From contig CAJQLF010000004.1 in assembly GCA_905479115.1 (NCBI GenBank), positions 1-64,000 of the forward strand: a stretch of DNA of 64,000 nucleotides, given 5' to 3'. A program made the translations under genes and the position numbers. Of this stretch, positions 8,820 to 57,226 are shown one piece after another. The notes beneath the pieces were generated by a model, which was not told the DNA's origin, did no database searches, and was given only the letters and a program-made list of their open reading frames with translations. The stretch is from an uncultured Flavobacteriales bacterium. GTDB taxonomy: Bacteria > Bacteroidota > Bacteroidia > Flavobacteriales_D > Sanyastnellaceae. How positions within the stretch are numbered: the stretch's first letter is position 1; each line of letters starts with the position of its first letter.

Positions 8820-8846
8820 CGCGCGAAAAGCGTGATTTTTCCCGTA

Positions 8847-10271: not shown

Positions 10272-10308
10272 CAGCAAATAATCGCGAACCCCTTATCGCA
10301 ATAGCCTC

Positions 10309-13479: not shown

Positions 13480-13486
13480 TAGGACC

Positions 13487-14866: not shown

Positions 14867-14877
14867 CCCTTACAGCC

Positions 14878-16106: not shown

Positions 16107-16108
16107 TC

Positions 16109-17368: not shown

Positions 17369-17388
17369 TCGCAAGAACTTTTTAAGTG

Positions 17389-18837: not shown

Positions 18838-18839
18838 TC

Positions 18840-24601: not shown

Positions 24602-24621
24602 GCCAGATGATGTATGCTTGA

Positions 24622-25806: not shown

Positions 25807-26462
25807 GACACAAGGGAATTTGTCACCGTGTCGGTGAGTTCGATGCGTCGCTCGTACCGGTCTTTTAATCGTTGGTCGTGCGTTACGATGACCAACGTGG
25901 CACCCAGTGTTTGCGCCTGTTCTTCCAAGAGAGCAACGACTGCTTGGGTACTTTGATCGTCCAGTGCGCTCGTGGGCTCATCAGCGAGGACGATGTCGGG
26001 CTTGTGAATCAACGCTCGCGCAATACCTGCCCGTTGCTGTTCACCCGTGCTTAAATCCCGGGGCCTGTCGTGGGCTTTGTGTCCGATTCCAAGCCGATCC
26101 AACAAAGCCTGAGCTTCCTGCGGGTCGAACGCTTCACCAAGTAAAAATGCCGGGATGGCTAAGTTTTCCAAAACAGTTAAGCTCTGCACAAAGTGGGATT
26201 TCTGAAAAACAATTCCAAAGTGCCTTCCTCGAAAAGCATCCCGCTCGCGCTCCGTCATGGTGACGAGGTTTTGGCCCTGGATGCTGATCTCTCCAGCAGT
26301 TGGCTGAAGCATGCCACAGAGCAAATGCAGCAAGGTGGTTTTGCCTGAGCCCGATTGTCCAAGTAACAGCAGTTGAGACCGTTCAGGACATTCGACGTCG
26401 GGAAAGGACATCATGGGGGTTCCCACTCGGTATTGAAATTGGATGTCTCGGCACTGAATCAT
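25803..26462 (-). CDS. ABC transporter ATP-binding protein, LolD/MacB type
   Basis: 219 residues from ATG 26462; a TTG at 26534 is in frame but would overlap the divergent gene. Walker A GQSGSGKTT is at 35-43, the signature motif is LSTGEQQRAGIARALIHKP, and Walker B is DIVLADEPTSALDD, with the H-loop in VIVTHDQRL. It is the ATPase partner of the FtsX-type permease it overlaps by four bases. The substrate cannot be read from the sequence; the DUF3299 neighbour is the only hint. Confidence 0.9.
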   Translation of the reverse strand: MIQCRDIQFQYRVGTPMMSFPDVECPERSQLLLLGQSGSGKTTLLHLLCGMLQPTAGEISIQGQNLVTMTERERDAFRGRHFGIVFQKSHFVQSLTVLENLAIPAFLLGEAFDPQEAQALLDRLGIGHKAHDRPRDLSTGEQQRAGIARALIHKPDIVLADEPTSALDDQSTQAVVALLEEQAQTLGATLVIVTHDQRLKDRYERRIELTDTVTNSLVS

Positions 26463-26507
26463 GAAGTTCGAATTTACGAAGGGAGTGCACACCTCGGTGG
26501 GTTGGTT

Positions 26508-26515
26508 TACTTTTG
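26508..26515 (+). promoter_or_regulatory. -7 box 4 bases before a GTG start
   Basis: TACTTTTG matches TAnnTTTG exactly and is followed by AAGC and then the GTG at 26520. If transcription starts at the usual distance, the first transcribed base is at or next to the start codon, so the message would be leaderless. Confidence 0.5.
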
Positions 26516-26519
26516 AAGC

Positions 26520-26951
26520 GTGAATTTTCGTCAACGGTTTTTGCGCTACGGCATCGGTGTTTTCATCGGAGTAATTTTAAGCGCCCTATTTTTCAGTGGT
26601 CGCAGTTGCAATGACTGGCTTCCGGCCAAGCGGATCAAAGCCCGGATGCAATTGGACGGGGTTTCTCCGGATGCCTACCTGAGTTGTCTGATGCAGTGTG
26701 AAGGTCCAACGGCAGCTTCCCGGGAAGTCTTAATGACGTGGCTGCTCGACTCGGAGATCCAATGGTCCTTGAGTGAGCCACGTGGAAGCCAACCTTGCTA
26801 TCACCTTAAGATGCCATTGGATTGTCCGTTTTCCTCCATGAAAATCTGCTTTTCAAATGATGAGGGAGAGCTGAGTCAAGCCGTGTTAAGCGAAGACATC
26901 GCGCTCAACTCCGCCTGTTCTTGTGCCTTGGCTACGGACGCAGGACAATGA
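26520..26951 (+). CDS. Small membrane-anchored protein of unknown function
   Basis: 143 residues from GTG 26520. An N-terminal span (YGIGVFIGVILSALFFSG, about 10-27) follows a basic start, giving an anchored protein with its bulk probably in the periplasm. Cys residues are numerous (SCNDW, SCLMQCEG, CYHL, CPFS, ICF, CSC), nine in all, which suggests disulfides or metal binding. I recognise the general shape of a Bacteroidota DUF4258-like protein with an N-terminal anchor and RIKARM-like segment, but I am not certain. It is divergent from the ABC operon, and its last 20 bases overlap the end of the convergent dehydrogenase gene. Confidence 0.65.
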   Translation: MNFRQRFLRYGIGVFIGVILSALFFSGRSCNDWLPAKRIKARMQLDGVSPDAYLSCLMQCEGPTAASREVLMTWLLDSEIQWSLSEPRGSQPCYHLKMPLDCPFSSMKICFSNDEGELSQAVLSEDIALNSACSCALATDAGQ

Positions 26952-28503
26952 GCTTTCCACGGATGGGTGTTTCGCTTGATGCGACCCATGCTTCGACAAT
27001 ATAGGTCCCCGCTTTCATGCCATTTGTGCTCCATGTGTAGGGAGATGGAGCCCAATAAAATTGAGCGTCATGAATACTGCGTCCCCCGGCATCTGTAATG
27101 CGAATTCGAGACAAAAAGACATCTTCTCCAGCGTCAAGAACCACGCTTTGACCGCCAAGAACGGGATTGGGAGAGAAAATTAATGATTCCGCTGGACTTC
27201 CAGTACCTTCTTGATCCGCTGGATCATACATGAGTTTGTACACGTTCAGCTGCGTGCATAAGTACAACTCACCTTCATTGTTTTCACTGAATGCGAAACG
27301 GGTCTCTTCCCATGGAACAAACCCCCCGGGAACGTCGATTTCCAGCGGTGCATCGATCCAACTTCCGTCTTCCTGCTCAGTGAGAGACCAAAACTTAACG
27401 TCATAAAAACCACAAGCATCCGTGAATACGTAATGTTCGTAGAGCGAGGGAATCGCCTCCCCGCGGTACCGGTATCCTCCTATAACAGAACACCATCCGT
27501 TTTCGTGGGGATAGGAGAAGATGGGCCATTCGAGGTTTCCGTCCGGATCACAGTCCACGATGGGTTCATAACACATGGGTCCTTCCATCAATCGCCAGCC
27601 AAAGTTGAGCCCGCCTTCTGAATCGGCAGATTCCATGTTGATTTCCTCCCAGTCTACCTCGCCCACATCGCCGATGAACTTGTCGCCCGTCAATCGGTCA
27701 AAGCTCCAGCGCCAAGGATTGCGAAAGCCGTAGGCCCAGATTTCATCCAGGGCTTCATCGTTTCCGACGAAGGGATTGGATTCTGGGATGGTGTAAGGTG
27801 CCAATCCATGGACCTCGATTCGCAGCATTTTTCCAAGAAGTGTCTGCAGATTTTGGCCGTTACCAATGGGGCCATGATCATCACCACCGCTTCCTCCGCC
27901 TGTCTCTCCCGTTCCTGTGCCACCGCCGTCTCCCGTGCTGAGGTACAGGTATCCGTCCAGAGGACCAAAATGCAGTTGCCCGCCATTGTGTCCGCGCGCA
28001 GGCTGCACAAGTTCTAACACCTCAAACCACGTCGTCGGATCTGCCTCGGTATGGTCCTCATTGGTTCCAAAGCAGATAAGCCGTTCGTCAATGAATTCGC
28101 CCGTTCCGTCAGGTCGGTACCCATTGTACATGACATAGAATAAACCGTTTTCTTCAAAATCGGGGTCAAGGATCAGGTCATTCAATCCTTGCTCACTCAT
28201 GATGCCGTAATCCACAAGGTCCAGTCCAGTTGAACTCAAATCCAAAAAGGGTTCTTCACGCACTTCTCCTGCCTCTTCATCGAACCACATAACCAGACCG
28301 CTGTGGCAAACAATGAGGAGGTTTGATTCACCAGGGGCATGCGACGCTGGACGCATGGAAACAGGCCATTCCGCGCCCATCAATCGAGTCCCTACGATGA
28401 CTTCTGGAGCTGTTTGCGCCTTGGCTAAAAAAGGCACAATTATCAGCACAAGGGCCATTAAAGCGAATAGGCTCCAAGAACGAAGGGTATGGTTAAGTGA
28501 CAT
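26932..28503 (-). CDS. Secreted PQQ-dependent glucose/sorbosone dehydrogenase-like protein with T9SS sorting domain
   Basis: 523 residues from ATG 28503 (a longer frame to 28551 would overlap the divergent gene's start). A signal peptide ends in FLAKAQ. Residues 35-410 follow the six-bladed GSDH fold: LNDLILDPDFEENGLFYVMY, GHNGGQLHFGPLDGYLYLST (the HxGG-type segment), YGFRNPWRWSFD and NFGWRLMEG. The C-terminal 80 residues are a T9SS type A sorting domain (FSPNPVLGGQSVVLDA ... MKAGTYIVEAW). Family members oxidise sugars using PQQ, with electrons going to a mediator or cytochrome. The true substrate is unknown, and some family members may not be sugar oxidases. It is divergent from a secreted pentaheme cytochrome. 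Confidence 0.87.
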   Translation of the reverse strand: MSLNHTLRSWSLFALMALVLIIVPFLAKAQTAPEVIVGTRLMGAEWPVSMRPASHAPGESNLLIVCHSGLVMWFDEEAGEVREEPFLDLSSTGLDLVDYGIMSEQGLNDLILDPDFEENGLFYVMYNGYRPDGTGEFIDERLICFGTNEDHTEADPTTWFEVLELVQPARGHNGGQLHFGPLDGYLYLSTGDGGGTGTGETGGGSGGDDHGPIGNGQNLQTLLGKMLRIEVHGLAPYTIPESNPFVGNDEALDEIWAYGFRNPWRWSFDRLTGDKFIGDVGEVDWEEINMESADSEGGLNFGWRLMEGPMCYEPIVDCDPDGNLEWPIFSYPHENGWCSVIGGYRYRGEAIPSLYEHYVFTDACGFYDVKFWSLTEQEDGSWIDAPLEIDVPGGFVPWEETRFAFSENNEGELYLCTQLNVYKLMYDPADQEGTGSPAESLIFSPNPVLGGQSVVLDAGEDVFLSRIRITDAGGRSIHDAQFYWAPSPYTWSTNGMKAGTYIVEAWVASSETPIRGKLIVLRP

Positions 28504-28520
28504 CAATCTTTTTTGCGGGC

Positions 28521-28536
28521 TAACTTTGCAAAGATA
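28521..28536. promoter_or_regulatory. Face-to-face -7 boxes sharing the palindrome CTTTGCAAAG
   Basis: TAACTTTG (28521-28528, plus strand) drives the cytochrome gene at 28550. TATCTTTG (28536 to 28529, minus strand) drives the dehydrogenase at 28503. The two boxes abut exactly, their TTTG ends forming CTTTGCAAAG (28524-28533). RNA polymerase could not sit on both at once, and the transcripts would overlap at their 5' ends. Confidence 0.6.
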
Positions 28537-28549
28537 CCCATCTGCACCC

Positions 28550-30490
28550 ATGACGCGTCATACATATATCGCCTTGTTCTTGCCGCTTGTGGCCATTGGA
28601 CTGGGTCAGTTGCTGACGGGTGCTGAAAATCCGCACCTGCGGTATGGCAAAGATGAAGCACAATGGATGCGCTGGCGAATGGGCGAATTGTGCACAGAGG
28701 AGGGGGTGTATTTCACGGGATCGGGCAACTGCGTTAATTGCCATGCTCCTGATCCCGATGGCGAAGCTTTGGTGGATGAACACGGAGCGACAGTAAGCCC
28801 CGTTGCCGATTGGCAGGCCACGTTGATGGCCAACAGTGCGCGCGATCCGTTTTGGCAAGCCAAAGTGGACCACGAGGGATTGGTGAACCCCACCCACCGA
28901 GAATCCATCGAAAACCTGTGCACCGCTTGCCATGCACCGCAAGGTTATCATGAGGCACATTTGACGGGGACTGCAGGGGCGAATGGCTACACCATGGATG
29001 ATCTGATGCAGGATGACTTGGGATTGGATGGAATTGGGTGCACCGCTTGCCACTCCATTGATGATGACAACCTCGCTGGCAGGAGCAACGGCGACTTACC
29101 CATCAACGATGAAAATGTTTCTTGGGGTGGATTTGAGAATCCATGGGATGGCTTGATGAGTGGCCAAACAGGATTCATTCCAGTTTTCGGTGAACACATG
29201 CGCAACAGCGAAGTCTGTGCGAGTTGCCACTCGTTGTATACCCATACGCAAGACCTGCAGGGTGAAGAGACAGGCCAAGTGTTTTTTGAGCAAACCACGT
29301 ACCTCGAGTGGGTGAACTCAGCATTCAATGCAGAAAACGTCCAATGCCAATCGTGCCATATGCCATTGGTTGAAGGAGGGGCCATTGCGGCGACTCAACC
29401 CAATTGGTTGTTCCCACAACGCTTCGGCAAGCACCATTTGGTGGGAGGAAATGCGTTCATGTTGAAATTGATGCGGGACAATGCGGTTCAGCTCAACCTG
29501 AGTGCGACACCTGTGCAATTTGACTCAACCATTGCGCGAACCGTAGCCTCTCTCCAGCATCAAACGGCCCATTTGAAGGTGCGTCAATTGGCCACCAGTC
29601 CAGGCGAGTGGGCTTTTGAAGTGGAAGTCGAAAACCTCGCCGGACATAAGTTTCCAAGCGGTTATCCGGCCCGACTTTCGTTCATTGAGTTCATCTTGAC
29701 AGGACCCGAGGACGATACATTGTTCCATAGTGGCGCTTGGTCTCCAGCTAATGGAATTAACGGACGTGATACAGGCCTGGAGCCTCATTGGAATGAAATC
29801 ACGTCGCCCGATCAAGTGCAGATTTATGAACTGGTTCTCGGTGACGTTGAGGGGGCGACGACGCAGGTGCTGGAAAGGGCTGCTATTTTGTTAAAGGATA
29901 ACCGGCTCCCCCCCCGTGGATTTTCGAGTCAGCATCCAACATACGATACCGTCCAAGTCGGTCCCATGGCCGCACTCGATGCGGACTTTAATCGTCTCAA
30001 TGGAGAAGAAGGGTCAGGTGCGGATCGATTGATTTACCGCATTTCGACGGGGGAAACCTCCACGGTTCACGCCACAGCTCGACTTCATTACCAAGCGGTT
30101 CCGAAGCGGTGGGTGGAAGCGATGTTCGACTTTGCAGATCAAAGTGAGCGGATTGCGGCGTTTGAATCGATGTATGCAGTTTCGGACCGAACGCCCGTTT
30201 TGGTCGCAGAGGCGAGATCAACAGGTTGGCCTGGATTTGATCCCGACGCCACAGATTGGAGAATGGCACCGAATCCCATCTTGTCAGGTCAGCTGCTGCG
30301 GTTGGTTCCTGCTGGCGAGGAAATGCCTTCCGCCATTGAACTCTTTGATTTGTCCGGCCGATTGATTCGAACGGTCGACCTGAGTGACGCGCTCGTGGGG
30401 CATTCGGTAGAAGACTTCGCAGCTGGAAACTACCTGATTCGGCTGGTATTTGAGGACCGGACTCAAAGCATTCGTTGGATGAAAGGCTAA
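28550..30490 (+). CDS. Secreted pentaheme cytochrome c with T9SS sorting domain
   Basis: 646 residues from ATG 28550, with a signal-like N-terminus (YIALFLPLVAIGLGQLL). Five CXXCH sites are seen at about residues 61 (CVNCH), 124 (CTACH), 164 (CTACH), 223 (CASCH) and 266 (CQSCH), with extra His residues able to serve as distal ligands. Residues 330-560 are beta-rich. The C-terminal 80 residues are a T9SS type A domain (MAPNPILSGQLLRLVPAG ... FAAGNYLIRLVF). It should therefore be exported to the surface or released. The likely role is electron transfer outside the outer membrane. The natural partner is the divergent PQQ-type dehydrogenase, which is inference from position and shared export route. 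Confidence 0.88.
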   Translation: MTRHTYIALFLPLVAIGLGQLLTGAENPHLRYGKDEAQWMRWRMGELCTEEGVYFTGSGNCVNCHAPDPDGEALVDEHGATVSPVADWQATLMANSARDPFWQAKVDHEGLVNPTHRESIENLCTACHAPQGYHEAHLTGTAGANGYTMDDLMQDDLGLDGIGCTACHSIDDDNLAGRSNGDLPINDENVSWGGFENPWDGLMSGQTGFIPVFGEHMRNSEVCASCHSLYTHTQDLQGEETGQVFFEQTTYLEWVNSAFNAENVQCQSCHMPLVEGGAIAATQPNWLFPQRFGKHHLVGGNAFMLKLMRDNAVQLNLSATPVQFDSTIARTVASLQHQTAHLKVRQLATSPGEWAFEVEVENLAGHKFPSGYPARLSFIEFILTGPEDDTLFHSGAWSPANGINGRDTGLEPHWNEITSPDQVQIYELVLGDVEGATTQVLERAAILLKDNRLPPRGFSSQHPTYDTVQVGPMAALDADFNRLNGEEGSGADRLIYRISTGETSTVHATARLHYQAVPKRWVEAMFDFADQSERIAAFESMYAVSDRTPVLVAEARSTGWPGFDPDATDWRMAPNPILSGQLLRLVPAGEEMPSAIELFDLSGRLIRTVDLSDALVGHSVEDFAAGNYLIRLVFEDRTQSIRWMKG

Positions 30491-30586: not shown

Positions 30587-32830
30587 ATGCGGCGGCGGCG
30601 TTCCTTCATTATCCTCTTGATTTGTTCTTTCACAGGCGGCTTCTTGGCGGCCCAAGATTCAGCGGAATTCAGTGAGGATTCCATTTCCAAAATGCTGTCT
30701 CAATGGCATGCCATCCCCGGTGCGGAGGTAACTTCGGTGGGCCTTGGTGCCGGTGCACGAGGACTGGACGAGGTGCCTGGCGCGTTGCACGTGATTCGAC
30801 CGGCAGAGTTGGAGCGCTATGCTTACACAGATCCTTTGCGAGTTTTGCGATCCGTAAGCGGGGTAAATATTCAAGAGGAAGACGGATTTGGCTTGCGTCC
30901 CAACATTGGCCTGCGCGGTTCTGGTTCGGATCGCAGTGCCCGCATTACGTTAATGGAGGACGGTGTGCTTATTGCCCCAGCACCGTACTCAGCTCCGGCG
31001 GCTTACTATTTTCCTTCAATTGCGAGAATGGAATCTGTAGAGGTCTTAAAGGGGAGCAGCCAGATTGCATTTGGTCCGCAGACGGCAGGTGGCGCAATTA
31101 ATCTGGTCACGCCACAAGCGGCAGGCCCGTCAGGAATATTGTTCCGCTCAGAGCGCAGCAGTTTTGGAGGGCACTTGCGCCATTTGAGGCTTCGCCAAGA
31201 GTGGCAAACGAACAGGGGGACGTGGTCGAGCCTCGTGGAGGCGATTCAATTGGGGAGTGATGGATTTAAATCGCTGCCTAACGCGGACCCTACGGGCTTC
31301 ACCAAGACAGATGGCATGGTGAAGATTCGGTGGGAAGCATCAAAAGATGCACGTTTCAATCAGTCGATTGAAGTCAAAGGCGGTTGGGTACAGGAATTAA
31401 GCCATGAAACCTATGCGGGCCTTGCTGAAGCCGATTTTGTGCAGAACCCTTTCCAGCGTTATGCCGCATCGAGCAATGACCTGATGGAGTCCAAGCATCG
31501 CCAAATGACGTTGCGACACGAAGCTGAATTGACGGCTCGATGGAGTGTACGAACCGATGTGTACCGCATGCGCTTCCATCGGAATTGGTACAAACTTGAT
31601 CGCTACCGAGACGCAAGCGGAAACAGTCAGTCTTTGTTATCTCTGTATGAGTCGGGCCAAACGGCTGTGTTGCAAGAGCCCACGGCACTGGATGCCTTGC
31701 TTCAACTCAAAGCAAATAACCGCGACTACCTTGCTCAAGGAATTCAGCACAGAGGCGTGATCAAAGGTCAATCTGGGAATCAGCTGGTTTATGGTTTGCG
31801 CGTGCACGAGGATGAGGTTGACCGATTCGAATGGCGCGATGGGTACCAGCTAACGGATGGTAGGATGCGCATGGTGCAACCCGGTGAACAGGGCTCAGCA
31901 GGCAATCGATTGGATGGCGCGCGCGCCCTGGCGGGGTATGTTCGCGGCACAATTCGCTTGTCGAACTGGACATTGACCCCGGGTATCCGTACGGAGCAAA
32001 TGGAATTTTTCCGGTTGGATTATGGGGCAGACAATGGTTCCCGAGAGGAGGAACCCGCGAGCCGAAGGACCAATCAGGTGTCTGTCTGGTTGCCCGGCCT
32101 TGGCGTTAACTACTCCCTGTCGGAGGAAGCTCAACTTTTTGCGGGTGTTCACCGGGGTTTTATCCCCCCTGGTAGCGCACCGGGCACTCAATCAGAAACC
32201 AGTGTGAATACAGAATTGGGGTATCGCTGGTCGAGCCGTCGATTCAACGGACAGGTGGTGGCCTTTTACAATTCGTACAATCATTTGATGGGGTCTGATT
32301 TAACGGCGAATGGAGGGGTTGGAACAGGAGATTTGTTCAATGGAGGTTCGGCGAGAACACATGGTGTAGAATGTGAAGTGGCCCTGGATTTGTTAGCTTC
32401 TAGCGACACGTGGTCAGCTCCGTTGCGGCTTACTTATACTTACACAGATGCGCGTTTCACGTCTGATTTTGAGAGCGATTTTGGTCCTTGGGATGCTGTG
32501 AAAGACGGGGATTTTCTTCCGTATTTGGCGCCGCATCAAGGAAATGCTCAAATTTCATTGGTCACGGGCAGGTGGTCGGGCGAGCTGAGCTATCGGTATG
32601 TGGCTGCCATGCGCACCATGGCGGGGAGAGCTTCCATCGATTTAGTGGAGGCTACAGATGTAGCATCGATTTTTGACGCTGTGATTCGTCGGGAATTCGG
32701 GTCCAATTTTTCAGCCTATGCTGGGGTCAATAATGTCTTCGATGCCGTCGTTGTTGTTGCACGCCGGCCTGCCGGCCTTCGGCCCGCCATGCCCAGGTTG
32801 TTCCGTGTGGGAATGAGGTGGTCTATGTAA
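30587..32830 (+). CDS. TonB-dependent receptor, FecA-like
   Basis: 747 residues. After the signal peptide (cleavage near FLAAQ) comes a plug domain (about 55-180) with PGALHVIRPAELERYAY, GLRPNIGLRGSGSDRSARIT and LMEDGVLIAPAPYSAPAAYY. A 22-stranded barrel follows and ends with FRVGMRWSM, whose aromatic end fits the outer-membrane insertion signal. The APAPYSAPAAYYFP motif is typical of receptors annotated as Fe(III) dicitrate/siderophore type (FecA family). It imports ferric chelates using TonB energy, and a TonB-type protein is encoded at 58099. The Fur-like palindrome upstream agrees with iron control. The substrate is not proven. Confidence 0.9.
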   Translation: MRRRRSFIILLICSFTGGFLAAQDSAEFSEDSISKMLSQWHAIPGAEVTSVGLGAGARGLDEVPGALHVIRPAELERYAYTDPLRVLRSVSGVNIQEEDGFGLRPNIGLRGSGSDRSARITLMEDGVLIAPAPYSAPAAYYFPSIARMESVEVLKGSSQIAFGPQTAGGAINLVTPQAAGPSGILFRSERSSFGGHLRHLRLRQEWQTNRGTWSSLVEAIQLGSDGFKSLPNADPTGFTKTDGMVKIRWEASKDARFNQSIEVKGGWVQELSHETYAGLAEADFVQNPFQRYAASSNDLMESKHRQMTLRHEAELTARWSVRTDVYRMRFHRNWYKLDRYRDASGNSQSLLSLYESGQTAVLQEPTALDALLQLKANNRDYLAQGIQHRGVIKGQSGNQLVYGLRVHEDEVDRFEWRDGYQLTDGRMRMVQPGEQGSAGNRLDGARALAGYVRGTIRLSNWTLTPGIRTEQMEFFRLDYGADNGSREEEPASRRTNQVSVWLPGLGVNYSLSEEAQLFAGVHRGFIPPGSAPGTQSETSVNTELGYRWSSRRFNGQVVAFYNSYNHLMGSDLTANGGVGTGDLFNGGSARTHGVECEVALDLLASSDTWSAPLRLTYTYTDARFTSDFESDFGPWDAVKDGDFLPYLAPHQGNAQISLVTGRWSGELSYRYVAAMRTMAGRASIDLVEATDVASIFDAVIRREFGSNFSAYAGVNNVFDAVVVVARRPAGLRPAMPRLFRVGMRWSM

Positions 32831-42142: not shown

Positions 42143-42180
42143 GGACTAAAATTTAGAATGTGAATATGCACCTTTTTAAA

Positions 42181-42217
42181 CGAAAAATCCGCACTGCCCA
42201 GAAGGGTAGTGCGGATT
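42181..42217 (-). terminator. Rho-independent terminator of the copy B gene
   Basis: A 14-bp stem (42186-42199 with 42204-42217, one G-T pair) around a four-base loop is followed on the minus strand by ATTTTTCGTTT. It lies 29 bases after the stop at 42246 and separates the two paralogues into different transcripts. Confidence 0.88.
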
Positions 42218-42245
42218 CTTTATCGTTGATTCGCTTCTGGAGCGA

Positions 42246-49164: not shown

Positions 49165-49757
49165 TCCATCACTTGAGAGGAAGGCTGATTGAGAAGACCC
49201 CGACGTATGCGGTCATGGAGTGTGCAGGCGTAGGCTACCAGGTTCATATTAGTTTGAATACGTACGAACAGCTGGGGAGGGATGAAAATGTGCTTCTTCA
49301 TACGCATCTCGTGGTGCGCGAAGACGCGCAATTGCTTTATGGATTTGCCCAACCGGACGAGCGCGAGTTGTTCTTGTTGTTGTTGGGTGTAAGTGGCGTG
49401 GGAGCGAATACCGCTCGGATGATTTTGAGTGCGATGGACGTTTCGCACGCAAGGCAAGCAATTCAGGCTGGGGATGTGGATGCAATGAAGTCGGTGAAAG
49501 GCATCGGGGCGAAGACGGCGCAGCGAATCATCATCGACCTGCAGGATAAATTGGGAGCCTTAGATGCCAGTGGAACAGTCCCTTCTGGAGGAAGTGTAAT
49601 GCAGGGCAATAATTCCAGGCAAGAGGCGTTATTAGCGCTCACAACGCTCGGTTTTGATCGAGGCCGTTGCGAAAAAACATTGGACCAAATTCTCAAGGAA
49701 ATACCGGGGACATCAGCGGTAGAAGACTTGATTAAACACGCATTGAAGCGACTATGA
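49161..49757 (+). CDS. ruvA: Holliday junction branch-migration protein RuvA
   Basis: 198 residues. The OB-fold domain (MIHHLRGRLIEKTPTYAVME, 1-62) is followed by two helix-hairpin-helix motifs (LLLGVSGVGANTARMILS and VKGIGAKTAQRIIIDLQ) and the C-terminal RuvB-binding domain (about 150-198). It forms the tetramer that holds the four-way junction for RuvB. It overlaps both neighbours by four bases (maeB before, sprA after), an order well conserved in Bacteroidota. Confidence 0.97.
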   Translation: MIHHLRGRLIEKTPTYAVMECAGVGYQVHISLNTYEQLGRDENVLLHTHLVVREDAQLLYGFAQPDERELFLLLLGVSGVGANTARMILSAMDVSHARQAIQAGDVDAMKSVKGIGAKTAQRIIIDLQDKLGALDASGTVPSGGSVMQGNNSRQEALLALTTLGFDRGRCEKTLDQILKEIPGTSAVEDLIKHALKRL

Positions 49758-52700
49758 AGGGAGGCAGAAGATTGAATCCGAGTGGATTTCTCTTGATGTG
49801 CATGGGACTTTTGGCCTCTTGTACTGTTGCTGCGCAATCGAATGCTGTTGAAGATTCTATCGAAATCAATCTGCCTTTTCCGTTTGGAGGAGAGGATGCT
49901 TACAACCCGACCGAATCCCCTGCTGGTTTCGACTTTGCTTGGCCAGAGAACTTCACGTACGAGACGCTCTTCGATGAGGCCACCGGGTTGTACAGCATTC
50001 AACAGCGCATCGGAGACACTTTGTTGTACCGTCCCACTACATTTTTGACGCTGGATGAGTTTCTGAACTATGACATTACGGGAAACCTGACGGAGTACTG
50101 GAATGAGCTTCAAACAGAAGACGATGAAGCCGATCGGGCTTTTGCACCCAAATTAACCATTGACAGCGAGCTGTTTGAATCGATTTTTGGAAGCAACGAG
50201 ATCGAAATCAAGCCACAGGGCTCAGCTGAACTGACGTTTGGTGTCAACATTTCGGATACGGAGAACCCTCGAATCCCGGAACGGCAGCGTCGGATTACCA
50301 CGTTTGACTTTGACCAGCGTATTCAATTGAACATTGGAGGAAAAATTGGGGACAAGATTGAATTGGGGACCAATTACAACACCGAGGCGCTCTTCGACTT
50401 TGAGAACCAAATGAACATTGGCTTCCAGGGGGAGGAAGATGATATTTTAAAGAATTTTGAGGCGGGACATATTTCCATGCCATTGCCCGGAACCCTCATT
50501 ACAGGAAGTCAAAGTCTTTTTGGGGTCAAGTTGGAAACCCAATGGGGCCGACTGTACAATACAACCGTTTTTTCTCAGCAAAAAGGGGAGCGCAAGGAGA
50601 TTGAGGTGGAGGGAGGAGCTCAAACGCAAGAGTTTGATATTCGAGCTGACGATTATGAGGCTAACCGACACTATTTCCTTTCCCAGTATTTCTTAGATCA
50701 ATATGATCAAGCCATGCGGAGCTTGCCCGTTCCAAGTTCAGGGGTCAACATCACGCGGATTGAAGTGTGGGTTGTGAACACACAAGCAAATACCCAAGAC
50801 GTTCGAAACATCATTGGTTTCACGGACATGGGTGAACACCCGGATTACATATCCTCCAACTTGCCAGTGGCAGACTTGGTGGATGATCCTGATTTGACCA
50901 TTACCGATGCCCGCAACCCGACAAATGGCAACAACGAACTCTTTGGGATGATGGTGAGTGACCCCAATGTTTTGGGGTTCACCGGCGCCAACGGCGCCAT
51001 CGGGTCCATGAACCTGGGGTTGACCCAAGGCATCCACTATGAGCGGGTGGGGAATGCCCGTAAGCTGGCACCTACGGAGTACACGTATAATTCTCGGCTA
51101 GGATTTATCTCCTTGCGTCAAGCTCTGAATAATGCCGAAGTGCTTGCTGTCTCTTACGAATATACCTTGGGAGGGGAGACCTACCAGGTGGGAACCTTAT
51201 CCCAGGATGGTTACAGCGCTCCGGACGCCTTGATGCTCAAGATGCTCAAATCGAGTATTACCCAATTGAGTTTAAGCAATGGCGATCAGTCGCCACTTTG
51301 GCGGATCATGATGAAAAACGTCTACTCGATGCAGGCGTTCGGGTTGAGCGAGGAAAATTTTCGGTTGAATATTTGGTACAATGATCCCTCAACAGGCGTA
51401 GATCTGAATTACATCCCGCGCAATCCGCTGGACGGCACACTGCTGCTGCAGTTACTGGGGATGGATCGATTGGATATCAATGGAATGAATCAACCGGACG
51501 GTGTGTTTGACTTTGTGGACAATGCGGCGATTTCTGGAGGGACGATTCACAGTCAGAATGGCCGCATTTTCTTCCCATCGACGGAACCTTTTGGCTCCAA
51601 CTTAAAGAGAGAAATTGAAGCCCGCGTTGACGACCCGGATTTGGCGGCGAGCTTAATTCAGACCATTGTTTTTCAACCTCTTTACGACAGCACGAAAACA
51701 GCGGCGCAGCAGATTCCATCACTGAATCGCTTCCGAATCAAAGGAGAGTTCCAAAGTCAGACCAGCAGTGAAATTGCGTTGCAAGCCATGAACATACCGG
51801 AAGGTTCGGTGAACGTCACGGCGGGTGGAGTCCGTTTAATCGAAAACCAAGATTACACGGTCGACTACCAATTGGGGCGCGTCCGAATCATCAACGATGG
51901 ATTGCTGGAATCCGGTCGCAACATTAAGGTGTCGCTGGAGAGCAATTCTCTTTTTAGCATACAGACCAAAACGATGATGGGGACGAGGTTTGACTATGCC
52001 CTCAGCGATCAGTTTAGCATGGGAGCCACCTTGTTGAATTTGCGCGAACGCCCCTTGACACAGAAGGTGAACATCGGGAATGAGCCGGTGAATAATTCCA
52101 TTGTGGGAGCTGACTTCAAGTACCAAGGGGAAAGCCAATTCTTGACCGAATTAATTGACGCGCTGCCTTTTTATGAGACGAGTGCGAGTTCGAGCATTGA
52201 CATTGCGGCAGAAGCCGCCTACCTCATTCCAGGGCACAGCCGGGCGATCGGACAGGACGGGAATGCATACATCGATGATTTTGAAGGCAGTCAATCGGCC
52301 ATTGATATCCGCTCGGTGAACCGGTGGTTCTTGGCATCCACGCCCAAACTGCAGCCGGATTTATTTCCAGAAGGCAATTTTGAGGACAGCCTGCTCTACA
52401 ACTACAACCGAGCTGCACTGAGCTGGTATACCGTCGACCCTCAATTTTTCCGAGGATCGGGATTGCAGGACGGTCAAGTGAGTGCCGAGATCAAGAGCGA
52501 CCACCGAACACGCGAGGTGCTGGAAGGAGAAGTCTTCCCGAACCGGGAGTTACCGACGGGTACCCCACCGAATGTTCCTACCCTGGACCTGACCTTCCGG
52601 CCAGAGAATCGGGGGCCTTACAACTATGAGCAGCCAGAAGGTGCGAATGGAGTTTCTGCGGGTCTCACCCCGGAAGGGTCGCTCGCAGATCCTAGCAGCC

Positions 52701-55700
52701 GTTGGGGGGGCGTCCAACGCGCATTGACGACCACCGATTTTGAATCCGCGAACATTGAATACCTCCAGTTCTGGTTGATGGACCCGTTTAATGAGGATTC
52801 GGAAAATGTCACGGGCGGGGAATTTTACATCAATTTGGGCAATGTTTCGGAGGATGTGTTGAACGACAGCCAACTGTCCTATGAGAATGGATTGCCTTCA
52901 GCCAACAACCCAGATTTGCCCACTTTGGAGGGGGTTTGGGGTGTGTATCCGGACCCTACAACCTTCAACGTTGTCAACGCTTTCGATAATACATCGGGCA
53001 ATTATGATCTGCAGGATGTGGGATTGGATGGTCTTCCCGATAACGAAGAACAAAACTTTTTTGCAGATTGGTTGAGCGCGGTCCAAGACTGGGTAACGCC
53101 AGCGGCTTATTCGGAAATTGCAAGCGACCCTTCTGGCGATAACTTTCGTTATTTCCGAAATCCAGAGGCGCAAGCAGCCGAAGAGACGATTTTGGAGCGA
53201 TACCGTCGTTTTAACGGATACGAGAACAACTCGAATACCGGGTCACCAGATGGCTACCCCATCACATCCACAACGATACCCAATACCGAGGACATCAACC
53301 AAGATATCACCCTTTCCACGATTGAAAGCTACTATCAATACAAGGTGTCTTTGAAGCCACAAGATTTGGGGGAATTCAACATTGGGAGCAACTACATCAC
53401 GGATACCTTCGAGCAGGTTGTAACCACGGCGGATGACCAAGACCGCACGATTCGCTGGTACCAGTTCAAAATTCCTGTTCGCGAATTTGATAAAAGAGTT
53501 GGGGGCATTACCGATTTCCGCTCGATTCGCTTCATCCGCATGTTCATGAAGGGATGGTCTGAGCCGGCTACCTTGCGTTTTGCCCGCCTGGAGTTGATCC
53601 GTGGAGAGTGGCGACGGTACCTGAATTCGTTGGCGGGTCCCCAGGAGGTCGAACCGGATGATCCATCTTCAACATCTTTTGCGATCAGTGCAGTGAACAT
53701 CGAGGAAAACGGAAACCGTGAGCCGGTGCCGTATGTAACTCCTCCAGGCATCCTGCGCGAGATTGACGTGGGAACGGCGAATCAACGGCGATTGAATGAA
53801 CAATCATTGGAGATGGCTGTGTGCGGTCTCAAAGACGGTGATGCGCGCGGTGCGTATCGAAACATCAATTTTGATATGCGGATGTACAAGCGATTGCGCA
53901 TGTACGTTCACGCCGAAGCGGGACCAGACGGGACAACCCTCGAAGATGACGACATGACCTGTTTCATCCGATTGGGCAATGATTTCGAGAACAACTACTA
54001 CGAGTATGAAATCCCAATGAAGGTGACTCCTTGGAATACGGGAGATGAGGACTTGATTTGGCCTGCACAGAACAACATTGACATTGAATTCCGCAAGTTG
54101 CAGAATCTCAAAATTGAGCGTCCATCGGGCTTTCCTCTTTTCGAGGAATACACGGGGATGGATTCTGAATACAATGCACGGCTTGCGGTGAAGGGAAATC
54201 CCAATTTGGCCAATGTGGTGATGGTGATGGTGGGCGTGCGGAATCCGGACAAGGATGACAATGTGTTTGATTCAGAAGATGATGGATTGGATAAATGCGG
54301 GATCGTTTGGGTGAATGAAATGCGCTTGGCAGATTTCAACCAAAAAGGCGGCTGGGCGGTCACGGCCCAAATGAATGCCAAGCTTGCAGACCTGGGAAAT
54401 GTTTCGGTGGCAGCCAACATGTCCACTCCTGGATTCGGAGGTTTGGAGGAGCGAATTCAAGAGCGGCAGCGAGAGACCATCCAAGCGTTGGATGCCTCTG
54501 GTACCATTCAGCTCGGCAAGTTGCTCCCAAAGAAACTGGGTATTTCGTTGCCGATGTACCTCGGTTATTCTCAGCAGGTTTCGACCCCTCAGTTTGATCC
54601 TTTATCTCCCGATATTGAAATGGCTGAACAGCAGGGTTTATCTCCGGATCGACAGAAAAACGCCCAAACGGTGAATCAGCTAAAATCGGTCAACTTCTCC
54701 AACATCAAGATTAACCCGCAAATCGGATCAGGTGGTTCGCGCGACCGAAATCGTGGCCGAGGGGGAGCAGCAGCAGGTGGGCGAGGAGACTTGGGCGCTG
54801 ATATGGGCGGCAAGGGCGGTAAGAATGGAGAGGACCCAAAGGCTGACATGGGAATGGGCTCCGCCCGCGGTGGTGGCTCTGCTCGAGGCGGTGGATCCGG
54901 TCGCGGTGGCGGAGGGAGCAACTTCGGATTGCTCAAGTTGCTGAATCCCGGGAATTTTTCAGCGAATTTTAGCTACATCGAAGCGCTGAATCGGGACGTA
55001 AACACTGAATTTCAGATCAACCGTGAATACCGCGCGGGGTTGAATTACAACTTCTCTCACTCGCCCAAGAATTTTAAACCGTTCAGCAAGATTGGGTTCT
55101 TGAGAAAATTGGAGTCCATGAAGTGGCTGACGGATTTTAATTTTTATTTATTCCCAAAGCAGTTCACCGTCGGGACGCAAATGAACCGAATTTATGAAAC
55201 CAGCCGCGTGCGGAATAACACAGAGGCGCTTTTGGGTGTTGAGACCAATTTGCTCATTAACACGCAGGTCATGAAGACGTGGCAGTGGGCGCGGAATTAT
55301 GCGTTGAAATACGATTTGACCAAAGCCTTGAAATTTGACTACACAGGCACGGCTCAAGCCCTGGTGGGTGAACCTGCGGGAGAAATCAACCGGGAAGATG
55401 CAGATCTGTATGAAGCGTACAAAGATTCGGTTCTTTTCAACCTTCAAAACGGCGGCGAGATTACAACCTATAATCACAATGTGACCGGCTCGTACAAGTT
55501 GCCGTTTGACAAGTTGCCCATTGTAAACTTTATTTCAAGCGACATTCGATACCAAGGGAGTTATCAATGGACCCGAGCGCCCTTCTCGCAGGATAGTTTG
55601 GGCCATACCATTCAAAACTCGCGAAACTTGAGTCTCAATGCCCAAGCTAACTTCACGAACCTTTACAATAAGATACCCGGTGTCAAGGACCTGTTGAATC

Positions 55701-57226
55701 CGCCCCGTCGCGCCCCCTCACGAAGCGACATTCGAAACGAAGACCGGGATGGCTTTGGCAACACCGATGAGGAAGAAAAAGTAAAGCTGGACTTGAATCC
55801 ACTCGCCACCATCGTTCGGCTGATCATGAGTGTTCAAAATGTATCCGGGTCATTCACGCGCAATGAAGGCATTCTATTGCCGGGGTATGCCCAACGAGCT
55901 CGTTTTGTAGGAATGGATGAACAACTGCTGGCTCCTGGAGCGGCATTTGTGCTCGGTCATCAAAACACCAATTGGCAAGGAGTGAAAGTGAACGACTTCG
56001 CACTGGACGCTGCAGAAAACGGTTGGTTGGTTGCGCAGCCGTATCAAAACCAGCAATACAACGAGACGTTCCAAGAGACGTTCAATGTCCGTGCAAACAT
56101 TGAACCGATTAAGCATTTAAAAGTTGAGCTTACAGCGAATCGGAACATCAGTCAGAATTACACCAGTTTTTTCCGATACGATGAGGTTCTTGGGGACTTT
56201 GTAGACGAATCACCGAATGCAACAGGCCAGTTCTCTGCAACGGTTGTGAGTTGGAAGACGGCGTTTGTCGAGGACGATTTGGATAATGAATTCAATTCGG
56301 ATGTTTGGTCTGATTTCTTGCTCAATCGCTTGCAGATTTCAAATCGCCTCAACGATGAGTCGTACCAGCTTGACGAGCCGGAGAACACGGGATATTATGT
56401 GGGTTGGGGCGGAACGAGCCAGGATGTAACCATCCCAGCGTTTGTGGCAGCTTACCTCGGGATTGATGCCAAAGACGTGCCACTTGATGTATTCAATACC
56501 CCCGTGGCACCGAATTGGCGCGTTTCCTATGATGGGTTGACTAAGAATGATTTTTTCAAGCAGTATTTCAAACGGTTTAATTTGAATCACAGCTACCGCT
56601 CGACATTGACTTCGAACTATGTGACTAATTTGAACTACAGCGAAGATGCAAACGGCCTGCCTACTTCGTTGGATCAGAGCGAATTTGGTAATTACATCTC
56701 GGATCGTCAGTTCAATGTTGTTAGCCTGAGTGAGCAGTTATCTCCTTTGATTGGAGTGGACATGACCATCAAGACAGAAGGAGAAAACGAACCGCAGATC
56801 AAGGTAGAATTGAAGCGAGACCGAAACGTAGCATTTGGCCTGACCAACTTCCAAATCACAGAAACGAAGAGCCAAGGGCTGGTCGTGGGCTTTGGCTATA
56901 AGTTCAAAGATGTGCCGAATCCTTTTATCAAAACCTATGGAAAGCTGCCGGTGAAAATGCTCAAGGAGACGGACTTGGTATTGCGTGCGGATTTGAACAT
57001 CCGGGACAACCGCACCATCATTCGCAAAATGGAGGAGCGTCAAAACCAAGTGACAGCGGGTCAAAACCTGGTGTCCATTAAAATGTCTGCGGATCTGGAA
57101 ATTTCGGATAAGATGACCATGCGGGCATTTTACGATCACCAAATTACCAGCCCGTACATATCGACATCTTTTGCTACGTCCAATATTCGTTCTGGCGTAG
57201 CTTTACGTTTCAACTTGAATCAATAA
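49754..57226 (+). CDS. sprA: SprA, outer-membrane translocon of the type IX secretion system
   Basis: 2490 residues, matching the size of SprA/Sov. A signal peptide ends in CTVAAQS. Typical segments are QRIQLNIGGKIGDKIELGTN (about 190), FLSQYFLDQYDQAMRSLPVP, AYLIPGHSRAIGQDG ... YIDDFEGSQSAIDIRS (about 820-850), and CGIVWVNEMRLADFNQKGGW (about 1515). The protein forms a 36-strand barrel through which T9SS cargo leaves; several cargos are encoded in this window. Residues about 1659-1723 (bases 54727-54925) are a low-complexity Arg/Gly/Asp-rich insert, unusual in the strand-rich core. The order ruvA-sprA-gcvH-vanZ is conserved in the phylum. Confidence 0.97.
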   Translation: MKGGRRLNPSGFLLMCMGLLASCTVAAQSNAVEDSIEINLPFPFGGEDAYNPTESPAGFDFAWPENFTYETLFDEATGLYSIQQRIGDTLLYRPTTFLTLDEFLNYDITGNLTEYWNELQTEDDEADRAFAPKLTIDSELFESIFGSNEIEIKPQGSAELTFGVNISDTENPRIPERQRRITTFDFDQRIQLNIGGKIGDKIELGTNYNTEALFDFENQMNIGFQGEEDDILKNFEAGHISMPLPGTLITGSQSLFGVKLETQWGRLYNTTVFSQQKGERKEIEVEGGAQTQEFDIRADDYEANRHYFLSQYFLDQYDQAMRSLPVPSSGVNITRIEVWVVNTQANTQDVRNIIGFTDMGEHPDYISSNLPVADLVDDPDLTITDARNPTNGNNELFGMMVSDPNVLGFTGANGAIGSMNLGLTQGIHYERVGNARKLAPTEYTYNSRLGFISLRQALNNAEVLAVSYEYTLGGETYQVGTLSQDGYSAPDALMLKMLKSSITQLSLSNGDQSPLWRIMMKNVYSMQAFGLSEENFRLNIWYNDPSTGVDLNYIPRNPLDGTLLLQLLGMDRLDINGMNQPDGVFDFVDNAAISGGTIHSQNGRIFFPSTEPFGSNLKREIEARVDDPDLAASLIQTIVFQPLYDSTKTAAQQIPSLNRFRIKGEFQSQTSSEIALQAMNIPEGSVNVTAGGVRLIENQDYTVDYQLGRVRIINDGLLESGRNIKVSLESNSLFSIQTKTMMGTRFDYALSDQFSMGATLLNLRERPLTQKVNIGNEPVNNSIVGADFKYQGESQFLTELIDALPFYETSASSSIDIAAEAAYLIPGHSRAIGQDGNAYIDDFEGSQSAIDIRSVNRWFLASTPKLQPDLFPEGNFEDSLLYNYNRAALSWYTVDPQFFRGSGLQDGQVSAEIKSDHRTREVLEGEVFPNRELPTGTPPNVPTLDLTFRPENRGPYNYEQPEGANGVSAGLTPEGSLADPSSRWGGVQRALTTTDFESANIEYLQFWLMDPFNEDSENVTGGEFYINLGNVSEDVLNDSQLSYENGLPSANNPDLPTLEGVWGVYPDPTTFNVVNAFDNTSGNYDLQDVGLDGLPDNEEQNFFADWLSAVQDWVTPAAYSEIASDPSGDNFRYFRNPEAQAAEETILERYRRFNGYENNSNTGSPDGYPITSTTIPNTEDINQDITLSTIESYYQYKVSLKPQDLGEFNIGSNYITDTFEQVVTTADDQDRTIRWYQFKIPVREFDKRVGGITDFRSIRFIRMFMKGWSEPATLRFARLELIRGEWRRYLNSLAGPQEVEPDDPSSTSFAISAVNIEENGNREPVPYVTPPGILREIDVGTANQRRLNEQSLEMAVCGLKDGDARGAYRNINFDMRMYKRLRMYVHAEAGPDGTTLEDDDMTCFIRLGNDFENNYYEYEIPMKVTPWNTGDEDLIWPAQNNIDIEFRKLQNLKIERPSGFPLFEEYTGMDSEYNARLAVKGNPNLANVVMVMVGVRNPDKDDNVFDSEDDGLDKCGIVWVNEMRLADFNQKGGWAVTAQMNAKLADLGNVSVAANMSTPGFGGLEERIQERQRETIQALDASGTIQLGKLLPKKLGISLPMYLGYSQQVSTPQFDPLSPDIEMAEQQGLSPDRQKNAQTVNQLKSVNFSNIKINPQIGSGGSRDRNRGRGGAAAGGRGDLGADMGGKGGKNGEDPKADMGMGSARGGGSARGGGSGRGGGGSNFGLLKLLNPGNFSANFSYIEALNRDVNTEFQINREYRAGLNYNFSHSPKNFKPFSKIGFLRKLESMKWLTDFNFYLFPKQFTVGTQMNRIYETSRVRNNTEALLGVETNLLINTQVMKTWQWARNYALKYDLTKALKFDYTGTAQALVGEPAGEINREDADLYEAYKDSVLFNLQNGGEITTYNHNVTGSYKLPFDKLPIVNFISSDIRYQGSYQWTRAPFSQDSLGHTIQNSRNLSLNAQANFTNLYNKIPGVKDLLNPPRRAPSRSDIRNEDRDGFGNTDEEEKVKLDLNPLATIVRLIMSVQNVSGSFTRNEGILLPGYAQRARFVGMDEQLLAPGAAFVLGHQNTNWQGVKVNDFALDAAENGWLVAQPYQNQQYNETFQETFNVRANIEPIKHLKVELTANRNISQNYTSFFRYDEVLGDFVDESPNATGQFSATVVSWKTAFVEDDLDNEFNSDVWSDFLLNRLQISNRLNDESYQLDEPENTGYYVGWGGTSQDVTIPAFVAAYLGIDAKDVPLDVFNTPVAPNWRVSYDGLTKNDFFKQYFKRFNLNHSYRSTLTSNYVTNLNYSEDANGLPTSLDQSEFGNYISDRQFNVVSLSEQLSPLIGVDMTIKTEGENEPQIKVELKRDRNVAFGLTNFQITETKSQGLVVGFGYKFKDVPNPFIKTYGKLPVKMLKETDLVLRADLNIRDNRTIIRKMEERQNQVTAGQNLVSIKMSADLEISDKMTMRAFYDHQITSPYISTSFATSNIRSGVALRFNLNQ

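Follow-up and report, generated by a model that had tools for sequence, protein, structure and literature searches.

Two genes that lie head to head in a 64,000-nucleotide stretch of DNA from an uncultured Flavobacteriales bacterium (hereafter, the window), one encoding a GSDH-fold protein and the other a cytochrome with five CxxCH motifs, are inherited as a pair by relatives of this bacterium. In the reading that we favor, and which we consider evenly balanced between right and wrong, the pair would constitute a T9SS-exported, two-protein dehydrogenase-cytochrome electron relay on the cell surface.

Layout of the gene pair

A first-pass annotation of the window had described this gene pair, and its existence and location were confirmed. 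However, the starts given in the open reading frame list are too far upstream for both genes. Signal-peptide-like N-termini, which were read from the sequence and not called by a predictor program, begin at ATG 28503 (minus strand) for the GSDH-fold protein and ATG 28550 (plus strand) for the cytochrome, so that the two genes diverge from a gap of 46 bp (Table 1). The 143-aa protein adjoining the GSDH gene was also found in 8 of 11 regions lacking the pair. Elsewhere, the window carries an oxidase-based respiratory cluster (18840-20597); it holds a terminal oxidase, and not a metal-respiring system.

Table 1. Features of the gene pair and its surroundings (positions in the window)
Feature	Position	Strand	Basis
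143-aa protein adjoining GSDH (context only)	26520..26951	+	hydrophobic N-terminal stretch
GSDH-fold, HHIP-like six-bladed beta-propeller protein, 523 aa	26932..28503	-	PF07995, ortholog alignment, fold matches; signal-peptide-like N-terminus, probable T9SS type A tail
Probable T9SS type A sorting domain of GSDH (C-terminal beta domain, PNP invariant)	26935..27195	-	TIGR04183, model
Part of GSDH that the GSDH profile matches, containing the conserved residues	27433..28203	-	profile and alignment
TAACTTTGCAAAGATA, a pair of opposed TAnnTTTG elements that overlap; candidate bidirectional promoter	28521..28536	.	composite TAnnTTTGCAAAnnTA search and linked loci
Five-heme c-type cytochrome, 646 aa	28550..30490	+	signal-peptide-like N-terminus, T9SS type A tail
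Five CxxCH heme motifs (28730, 28919, 29039, 29216, 29345)	28730..29359	+	motif positions
Candidate distal heme ligands (codons 29195, 29432, 29645, 29786, 29933)	29195..29935	+	alignment
T9SS type A sorting domain of cytochrome	30266..30484	+	TIGR04183, 27.8 bits (cut-off 23)
TonB-dependent receptor, FecA-like plug, inconsistently linked (context only)	30587..32830	+	profile/sequence matches
SprA/Sov, T9SS outer-membrane translocon	49754..57226	+	TIGR04189, 2349.6 bits (cut-off 200)

Inheritance of the pair and a candidate shared promoter

Within the genus, an ortholog of the GSDH-fold protein was present in 19 of 22 genomes (two as fragments), and in all 19 it lay head to head with a close cytochrome on the same contig. 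The remaining three genomes lack both genes; adjacent genes can be lost in a single deletion, and the joint absence is therefore weak evidence. A survey of 150 genomes from the order gave 13 orthologous GSDHs, of which 12 were paired. Co-occurrence in relatives had been proposed as a check on the annotation, and by both counts the pair is conserved and co-inherited. Cytochromes linked to a GSDH form a single clade in the cytochrome tree (27 of 48 rows; 100/99), and the GSDH tree has the same main groups. The one unpaired ortholog, from genome G083, is nested together with two named relatives within the paired clade (93/96, slightly below the tool's starred level). In this lineage (G083, UBA974 and UBA2619) the GSDH is kept and the cytochrome is absent, indicating that the GSDH can have a function without it.

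Could the two genes, with separate jobs, be adjacent merely because they sit in a very stable region of the chromosome? The order of the flanking block is conserved over many genes in relatives, so that neighbors of any kind are kept together, and several pair-less genomes retain the flanks around an empty site at the position of the pair. Nevertheless, we regard this explanation as very unlikely, given the opposed promoter motifs in the gap described below, the duplication of the cytochrome in G049, where two tandem five-heme cytochromes adjoin the GSDH at this very site, and the further loci at which members of these two families are paired. In G062 and G074, which belong to one genus, a more distant GSDH gene stands head to head with that of a five-heme cytochrome, and in G011 two such genes follow each other in tandem with 5 bp between them. 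These three rows from two genera compare with a chance expectation of ~0.1 adjacencies in 26 genomes, a rough figure worked out by hand from assumed values (43 GSDH rows, ~2,700 genes and roughly two cytochromes in each genome). In G098 and G044, 13-16 kb separate members of the two families, and no homolog of the window cytochrome was found in the flanks (up to 6 kb) of any of 73 distant GSDH loci.

The 46 bp gap contains TAACTTTGCAAAGATA, whose opposed boxes we take to be Bacteroidota-type -7 boxes. Opposed TAnnTTTG motifs spaced 8-13 bp apart occur in 18 of the 23 linked loci examined; at the pairings in G062 and G074, no such motif pair was seen. From their sequence, the two genes look as though they are under one common promoter, and the element is a candidate for their co-regulation. 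Since the composite TAnnTTTGCAAAnnTA has a single match in the 64 kb window, located in this gap, and the pairing recurs in relatives, the arrangement appears to be more than chance.

The GSDH-fold protein

The protein matches Pfam PF07995 with 99.1 bits (cut-off 25), and scores 36 bits, below the cut-off of 434.55, against the narrow subfamily model NCBIfam TIGR03606. Alignment to YliI identified E104, H172, D192, R261, N262 and G281 (523-aa numbering) in all 13 orthologs; the quinone-side E, H, D, R and N are present in 76/76 rows of the named collection (72 of them distant), and G281 in 75/76. We take their equivalents on the quinone and calcium side of sGDH to be E/Q76, H144, D163, R228, N229 and G247. 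In contrast, Lys377, Arg406 and Arg408 of sGDH have no clear equivalents family-wide: C364 occupies the place of Lys377 (13/13), the places of Arg406 and Arg408 are without a conserved arginine, and R402 (10/13) is one place off. The quinone and calcium side of the pocket is thus retained, its Lys377/Arg406/Arg408 side cannot be recognized, and PQQ use is putative; we infer the 'PQQ-type' label at the level of the family.

The window GSDH shares with sGDH (1c9u), Asd/YliI (2g8s) and Pyrobaculum ASD (3a9g) the six-bladed fold and, on the quinone and calcium side, conserved E/Q, H, D/E, R, N and G. Unlike these enzymes, the window protein has no recognizable Lys377, Arg406 or Arg408, carries a T9SS-like tail and is nearer to hedgehog-interacting protein (HHIP), its closest solved structure both by sequence (1.1e-17) and by fold (Z 29.3, compared with 23.6 for Asd 2g8s and 21.4 for sGDH). 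The fold scores derive from a predicted model with a mean pLDDT of 68.5, in which parts of the propeller fall below 50 and the surroundings of the active site are weak. As judged from sequence and model, then, the protein is nearest to HHIP, above the sGDH and Asd enzymes. Human HHIP shares its 'GG-vYRG' stretch; however, it reads HD where the enzymes have RN, and has thus lost the quinone-side R and N that the window GSDH keeps as R261 and N262. Moreover, HHIP is not a bacterial surface protein, as is proposed for the window GSDH.

This kinship raises the alternative that the GSDH-fold protein is a non-redox surface propeller that binds a glycan, metal or protein ligand in the manner of HHIP, and that the cytochrome is a separate, co-expressed redox protein. 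The rank of HHIP among the matches and the unrecognizable Lys377/Arg406/Arg408 side of the pocket favor this idea, as do the GSDH without a cytochrome in the G083 lineage and the outcome of the proposed search for PQQ synthesis genes. PqqC was found in 0/13 genomes (2/3 added control genomes scored above cut-off), and PqqE exceeded its cut-off in 0/40 genomes, but also in 0/14 control genomes. We nonetheless think this alternative unlikely, as R261, N262, H172 and D192 are kept in 13/13 orthologs, whereas HHIP reads HD for RN, and the more distant GSDHs adjoin five-heme cytochromes as well. For Bacteroidota that possess the importer PqqU, an excerpt of PMC12124388 reports dependence on scavenging alone.

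The pentaheme cytochrome

The five CxxCH motifs (residues 61, 124, 164, 223 and 266 of the 646-aa form) are present in all 48 cytochrome homologs, rows that had been pre-selected for at least four. The candidate distal ligands H216, H295, H366, H413 and H462 all occur in 27/27 linked copies. Among the 48 homologs, H295, H366 and H413 are invariant, H216 is found in 41 and H462 in 45; bis-His ligation of the hemes is putative.

All 13 aligned members match the ExtKL profile NF040886 at E <= 0.1 (best member, E 1.8e-10). Identity with ExtKL itself was rejected: the score of 15.7 bits is below the equivalog cut-off of 250, which makes the cytochrome a relative of ExtKL. The pentaheme cytochrome c552 of Thermochromatium tepidum (5ze8) was matched by profile in four pieces, including a GHKFPSG stretch (E 3.8e-5), and was the top fold match (E 3.5e-6; TM 0.22/0.35) of a poor query model (pLDDT 54.5). 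By these profile matches, the cytochrome is a relative of both ExtKL and c552. An excerpt of PMC11976967 groups ExtKL/Gsu2801 of Geobacter, the PHC of cable bacteria and c552, and reports that they resemble AvECN, an archaeal nanowire subunit. Like these proteins, the window cytochrome has five c-type hemes, and the family in which its kinship lies has been tied to extracellular electron transfer. Unlike the ExtKL/c552 family, it has a T9SS type A tail and adjoins a GSDH, in a genome without an MtrB/PioB match. That barrel (PF11854) was found in 0/13 genomes (the 12 with the pair and G083), with no control genome above cut-off either.

Export by the T9SS

Each protein had been credited with a signal peptide and a T9SS type A domain. 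Both N-termini are signal-peptide-like and the cytochrome tail passes the TIGR04183 cut-off, with 12/13 aligned members matching at E <= 0.1, but the tail of the window GSDH falls below it (14 bits, E 0.038; cut-off 23). Across the GSDH orthologs, however, 13/13 aligned tails (the window included) match at E <= 0.1, the best at 3.4e-10; the PNP is invariant among them, and residues 441-523 are folded in the predicted model, with block pLDDT values of 80-94. The Pfam tail model PF18962 finds neither window protein. The window encodes the translocon SprA/Sov (Table 1), and the genome has 67 sorting-domain matches at E<=0.001. Export of both proteins by the T9SS is plausible from their tails, which are clear for the cytochrome and weak for the GSDH.

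The neighboring TonB receptor

It had been suggested that electrons might pass toward the TonB-dependent receptor at 30587. A related proposal is that the pair is a surface ferric reductase, which reduces Fe(III) outside the cell and so feeds this receptor for iron uptake. In the window, as in G143, G065 and G122, the gene immediately downstream of the cytochrome does encode a FecA-like receptor. However, G146 has no such receptor next to the pair, nor do the six pair-bearing genomes from other genera whose flanks are long enough (G009, G148, G089, G020, G119 and G034), whereas G056 has lost the pair and retained the receptor. The match to FecA (phmmer, 69 bits) covers the plug only, and the iron role of the receptor is putative. 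The suggested electron path is thus not supported, and we consider the ferric reductase highly improbable. Against PqqU, the receptor gave a BLASTP score of 47 bits (23%), which is not comparable with the phmmer score to FecA, and a PqqU search of the genome returned five other places (best, 39.8 bits), with the receptor not among them.

A proposed surface electron relay

In the electron relay that we favor, both proteins would be exported by the T9SS and held at the cell surface, where the propeller would oxidize an extracellular substrate, probably an aldose or other hydroxy compound, using a PQQ-like cofactor taken from the surroundings. Electrons would pass to the pentaheme cytochrome, a presumptive bis-His low-spin carrier, and from there to an acceptor that may be an oxidized metal, a redox compound such as a humic substance, or another surface protein. 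Catalysis, cofactor, direct electron transfer between the two proteins and the acceptor are all inferred, and the pair would amount to a split form of a quinohemoprotein. The original interpretation is thus supported in part, by the conserved pairing, the kinship of the cytochrome and plausible T9SS export; the link to the TonB receptor is not supported, and the PQQ pocket is half kept.

We also entertain a broader idea, which is tentative and on the whole rather unlikely, that the T9SS of Flavobacteriales displays a split quinohemoprotein in which an HHIP-like, cofactor-scavenging class of dehydrogenase is wired to a nanowire-related pentaheme cytochrome, giving an extracellular chain without a porin-cytochrome conduit. 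If so, T9SS cargo would include working surface electron chains in addition to hydrolases and adhesins, cytochromes resembling nanowire subunits would be placed in bacteria that are not known to respire extracellularly and whose respiratory cluster is oxidase-based, and there would be a testable role for the HHIP-like GSDH proteins, which occur in many bacterial phyla (at least 80 loci).

Among the matches listed, literature searches found no description of a GSDH combined with a pentaheme cytochrome, in keeping with the original remark that no described system of this composition was known, although the parts themselves are of known kinds. Nor did one search find a report on the biochemistry of a bacterial HHIP-like GSDH; the match was a fungal enzyme only, the pyranose dehydrogenase of Coprinopsis cinerea (CcPDH; AA12 PQQ and AA8 heme b). 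Excerpts of PMC6881789 and PMC4133262 describe CcPDH as a predicted secreted six-bladed quinoprotein that lacks the Lys377 contact, yet binds PQQ by arginines; in the former excerpt, electrons of the AA12-AA8 quinohemoprotein go from PQQ to heme. As described there, the fungal CcPDH is a single fusion protein with heme b and retains its PQQ-binding arginines, whereas the window has two proteins and five c-type hemes. By analogy, this enzyme is one precedent for the relay, and another is encoded in the same genome (G000:C48, L074:4599-6041): an Asd-type GSDH with a fused N-terminal c-type heme (PF07995, 354 bits; PF13442, 42 bits). There, a GSDH is coupled to a c-type heme as proposed for the pair, but the heme is single and fused, and the protein is closer to YliI than to the window GSDH.

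A divergent gene pair with putative export signals

The genome from which the window derives is 2.27 Mb in size and 99.5% complete, and the window lies on its contig C4. The reading of the first-pass annotation, that a GSDH-fold gene and a gene for a cytochrome with five CxxCH motifs are encoded side by side, was borne out by the Pfam match of the former and the motif count of the latter. The starts given in the ORF list (28551 and 28313) were too long; with revised starts, the N-termini of both proteins, as read from the sequence, are signal-peptide-like, and the intergenic gap measures 46 bp. A phage origin was dropped after a PHROG search gave no match.

Both proteins had been proposed to be T9SS cargo. 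This stands for the cytochrome, whose tail scores 27.8 bits against TIGR04183 (cut-off 23; E ≤ 0.1 in 12 of 13 aligned members), but only in part for the window GSDH, whose tail reaches 14 bits and thus falls below the same cut-off. All 13 aligned GSDH tails, including the window copy, match the model at E ≤ 0.1 (best, 3.4e-10), and the tail region is folded confidently in the predicted model. Neither protein was matched by the Pfam tail model PF18962. The T9SS translocon protein SprA is encoded in the same 64-kb window (2349.6 bits), and there are 67 sorting-domain matches genome-wide at E ≤ 0.001.

Features of the window discussed in the text
Feature	Position	Strand	Details
GSDH-domain protein	26932-28503	minus	523 aa; PF07995 99.1 bits, cut-off 25
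Five-heme cytochrome	28550-30490	plus	646 aa; five CxxCH motifs
TAACTTTGCAAAGATA	28521-28536		two opposed TAnnTTTG copies in the 46-bp gap
143-aa gene	26520-26951	plus	beside the GSDH gene
TonB receptor	30587-32830	plus	downstream of the cytochrome gene
ABC transporter block	23993-26951		lipoprotein-like gene, FtsX-type permease, ABC ATPase, 143-aa protein
Respiratory cluster	8817-20597
Thioredoxin-like proteins	40703-43721		two in tandem, secreted

The cytochrome

Five CxxCH motifs are present in all 48 cytochrome homologs, whose pre-selection required four or more. H295, H366 and H413 occur in all 48, H216 in 41 and H462 in 45, and both of the latter are kept in every one of the 27 cytochromes linked to a GSDH. 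Together with the five motifs, these conserved histidines would be just enough for five bis-His hemes. The window cytochrome shares its five hemes and a profile match with ExtKL and with the pentaheme cytochrome c552 of T. tepidum (5ze8), but the ExtKL cut-off is not reached: the ExtKL profile is matched at E ≤ 0.1 by 13 of 13 aligned cytochromes, the window copy scoring far below the model cut-off. The profile match to 5ze8 has an E of 3.8e-5, and this structure is also the top fold match, on a poor model of the cytochrome. In the sections of PMC11976967 that treat them, ExtKL, Gsu2801 and cable-bacteria cytochromes constitute a single pentaheme family, for which a likeness to an archaeal nanowire subunit is reported. 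We consider it very likely that the protein is a pentaheme electron carrier.

The GSDH protein and its cofactor

The structural relatives of the GSDH protein are, in order, HHIP (Z 29.3), Asd (2g8s; Z 23.6) and sGDH (Z 21.4), obtained with a model that is weak around the active site. For pocket positions we assume the residue numbers of sGDH. The first-pass annotation had called the enzyme PQQ-type, and one side of the pocket agrees with this, in that E104, H172, D192, R261, N262 and G281 align with the quinone/calcium side and are invariant in all 13 orthologs; on the other side, C364 aligns with the Lys377 position and no conserved arginine was found at the Arg406 or Arg408 positions among the 13 orthologs. 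The same residue pattern extends more widely among HHIP-like proteins of bacteria, in a named set of 72 distant and 4 close rows (76 in all) obtained after relatives of ≥1000 aa and three near-copies were left out.

Lys377 and Arg408 are named in the relevant text of PMC6881789, and the corresponding part of PMC1781467 goes no further than listing Arg406 and Arg408 in a neighbouring pocket. As described in portions of PMC6881789 and PMC4133262, a fungal PQQ enzyme that is predicted to be secreted transfers electrons from its PQQ onto a heme domain while lacking the Lys377 contact, so that the missing lysine in the window GSDH does not exclude PQQ. The fungal enzyme retains the PQQ-binding arginines, however (PMC6881789, PMC4133262, same portions), and precedent covers an arginine loss less well than the lysine loss.

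Synthesis genes for PQQ, which had been looked for as a source of the cofactor, were searched as PqqE and PqqC. PqqE was above cut-off in none of 40 genomes, and in no control either; PqqC was found in none of 13 genomes, with two of three added control genomes above cut-off. On these two markers, own synthesis was rejected as the source. Bacteroidota with PqqU are reported, in the part of PMC12124388 concerned, to depend solely on scavenging. Overall, we lean towards the GSDH protein being redox-active, and regard the case for PQQ as its cofactor as evenly balanced.

Two observations concern other GSDH proteins of the order (G handles denote its genomes, G000 being that of the window; L and C denote extracted loci and contigs). 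A second GSDH of the window's genome (L074:4599-6041; G000 C48) resembles YliI, carries a c-type heme domain fused to its N-terminus, and shows no T9SS tail in a Pfam scan. Matches to a PqqU-like TonB receptor adjoin GSDH matches at G083:C31:44208-46385 (59 bits) and G009:C16:3070-6485 (104 bits), and these neighbours are possible PQQ import/use pairs.

Conservation of the pairing

A GSDH ortholog is present in 19 of 22 genomes of the genus (two as fragments), and in the same 19 a close cytochrome lies head to head with it on the same contig. Among 150 genomes of the order, an orthologous GSDH was found in 13 (48-100% identity), and is paired in 12, so that the pair recurs in relatives; the locus of G049 has a tandem of two five-heme cytochromes. 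Among the best 80 GSDH loci of the named collection, seven are close (46-78%), at least three being the same assemblies as genomes of the order set, and the cytochrome is present in five of the seven; the remaining 73 (≤45%) have no cytochrome homolog in flanks of up to 6 kb.

Both genes are absent from the other three genus genomes, G056, G140 and G162. In G056, a 60-aa ORF (L186:10227-10409) with 42% identity over 45 aa to the GSDH tail sits at the expected place beside the 143-aa gene, and is likely a relic remaining after loss of the pair. Proline dehydrogenase is the immediate neighbour of the 143-aa gene in G140 and G162, where neither the pair nor the TonB receptor intervenes. Joint absence was set aside as proof of coupling, since a single deletion can remove both genes.

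The cytochrome tree was built from loci L001-L030, L061-L073, L090-L104, L107, L111, L196 and L197, and does not include the cytochromes of G062:C127 and G074:C14. An ORF needed four or more CxxCH to be taken; homologs aligned over <400 residues were removed, as were identical copies. The linked copies constitute one clade (27 of 48 rows; support 100/99), and the main groups are repeated in the GSDH tree (16 GSDH-clade rows with six distant relatives as outgroup). The unpaired GSDHs of G083, UBA974 and UBA2619 are nested among the paired ones with a support of 93/96, slightly short of the starred level, and the cytochrome was therefore probably lost in this lineage. A TonB-linked receptor (CarbopepD_reg_2, Plug) and a DUF4249 protein have taken its place there, head to head with the GSDH, at L072:5303-8637 (G083), L109:2637-5968 and L110:2649-5965. 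The domain scan was made on L072, and the other two copies are 79-98% identical.

A promoter-like element in the gap

The gap holds two opposed copies of TAnnTTTG, which we take to be the Bacteroidota -7 element; TAnnTTTGCAAAnnTA occurs once within the 64-kb window, in this gap. Twenty-seven loci were named for the survey, of which L063 and L099 gave no row and L199 and L200 have another GSDH type, leaving 23 linked rows. The GSDH-side motif is present in all 23 and the cytochrome-side motif in 19, and the opposed motifs are spaced 8-13 bp apart in 18. The motif pair was not seen at L199 or L200, where a GSDH of that other type is paired with a cytochrome.

A proposed surface relay

The most likely mechanism is a two-protein relay, in which the GSDH would oxidise a substrate at the cell surface and pass electrons to the pentaheme cytochrome, which would deliver them to an acceptor outside the cell. 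Its export route, hemes, co-inheritance and co-regulation motif are supported by data; catalysis, cofactor, direct transfer and acceptor are what we infer. Functional coupling of the two proteins is likely, and we would give the chain as stated an even chance. An MtrB/PioB conduit was matched in none of 13 genomes.

Each component is of a known kind, and what is new is the T9SS-exported pairing. The first-pass annotation knew of no described system of this composition, and our literature search likewise gave no report of the combination among the matches listed, most subscription journals lying outside its coverage.

Further pairings and neighbourhood

A wider survey took in G083 and 25 genomes that have the cytochrome family and lack this pair, 26 in all, and gave 43 GSDH rows. 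In G062 and G074, the genes for a five-heme cytochrome and a YliI-like GSDH stand head to head, and the GSDH of G062 has a T9SS tail above cut-off. In G011, which belongs to another family, the two genes follow each other in tandem with 5 bp between them, and both T9SS tails are above cut-off. The two families lie 13-16 kb apart in G098 and G044, which counts against consistent pairing. Other five-heme cytochromes of the family are followed by a protein of 911-913 aa, at L199:11628-14369 (G062), L205:6484-9222 (G098) and L197:5793-8528 (G009); the one copy scanned (L199) has FG-GAP, UnbV_ASPIC and T9SS domains.

The suggested link of the pair to the neighbouring TonB receptor was not upheld: across the regions compared, the receptor is not a constant neighbour, and the idea that it belongs firmly to the system was rejected. 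Nor is a role as PQQ importer supported, the receptor being not recognisably PqqU. The ABC transporter block is kept in most regions with or without the pair. In 11 regions without it, the 143-aa gene was found in eight and the ABC permease in nine, from an ORF set that missed genes found by genome search in G080 and G113; the permease was matched in 22 of 23 genomes without the pair. Elsewhere in the window, the respiratory cluster, whose first gene has several CxxCH motifs, resembles alternative complex III with a cytochrome c oxidase behind it. One of the thioredoxin-like proteins (42246-43721) has a T9SS tail, and the other a sorting-domain hit.
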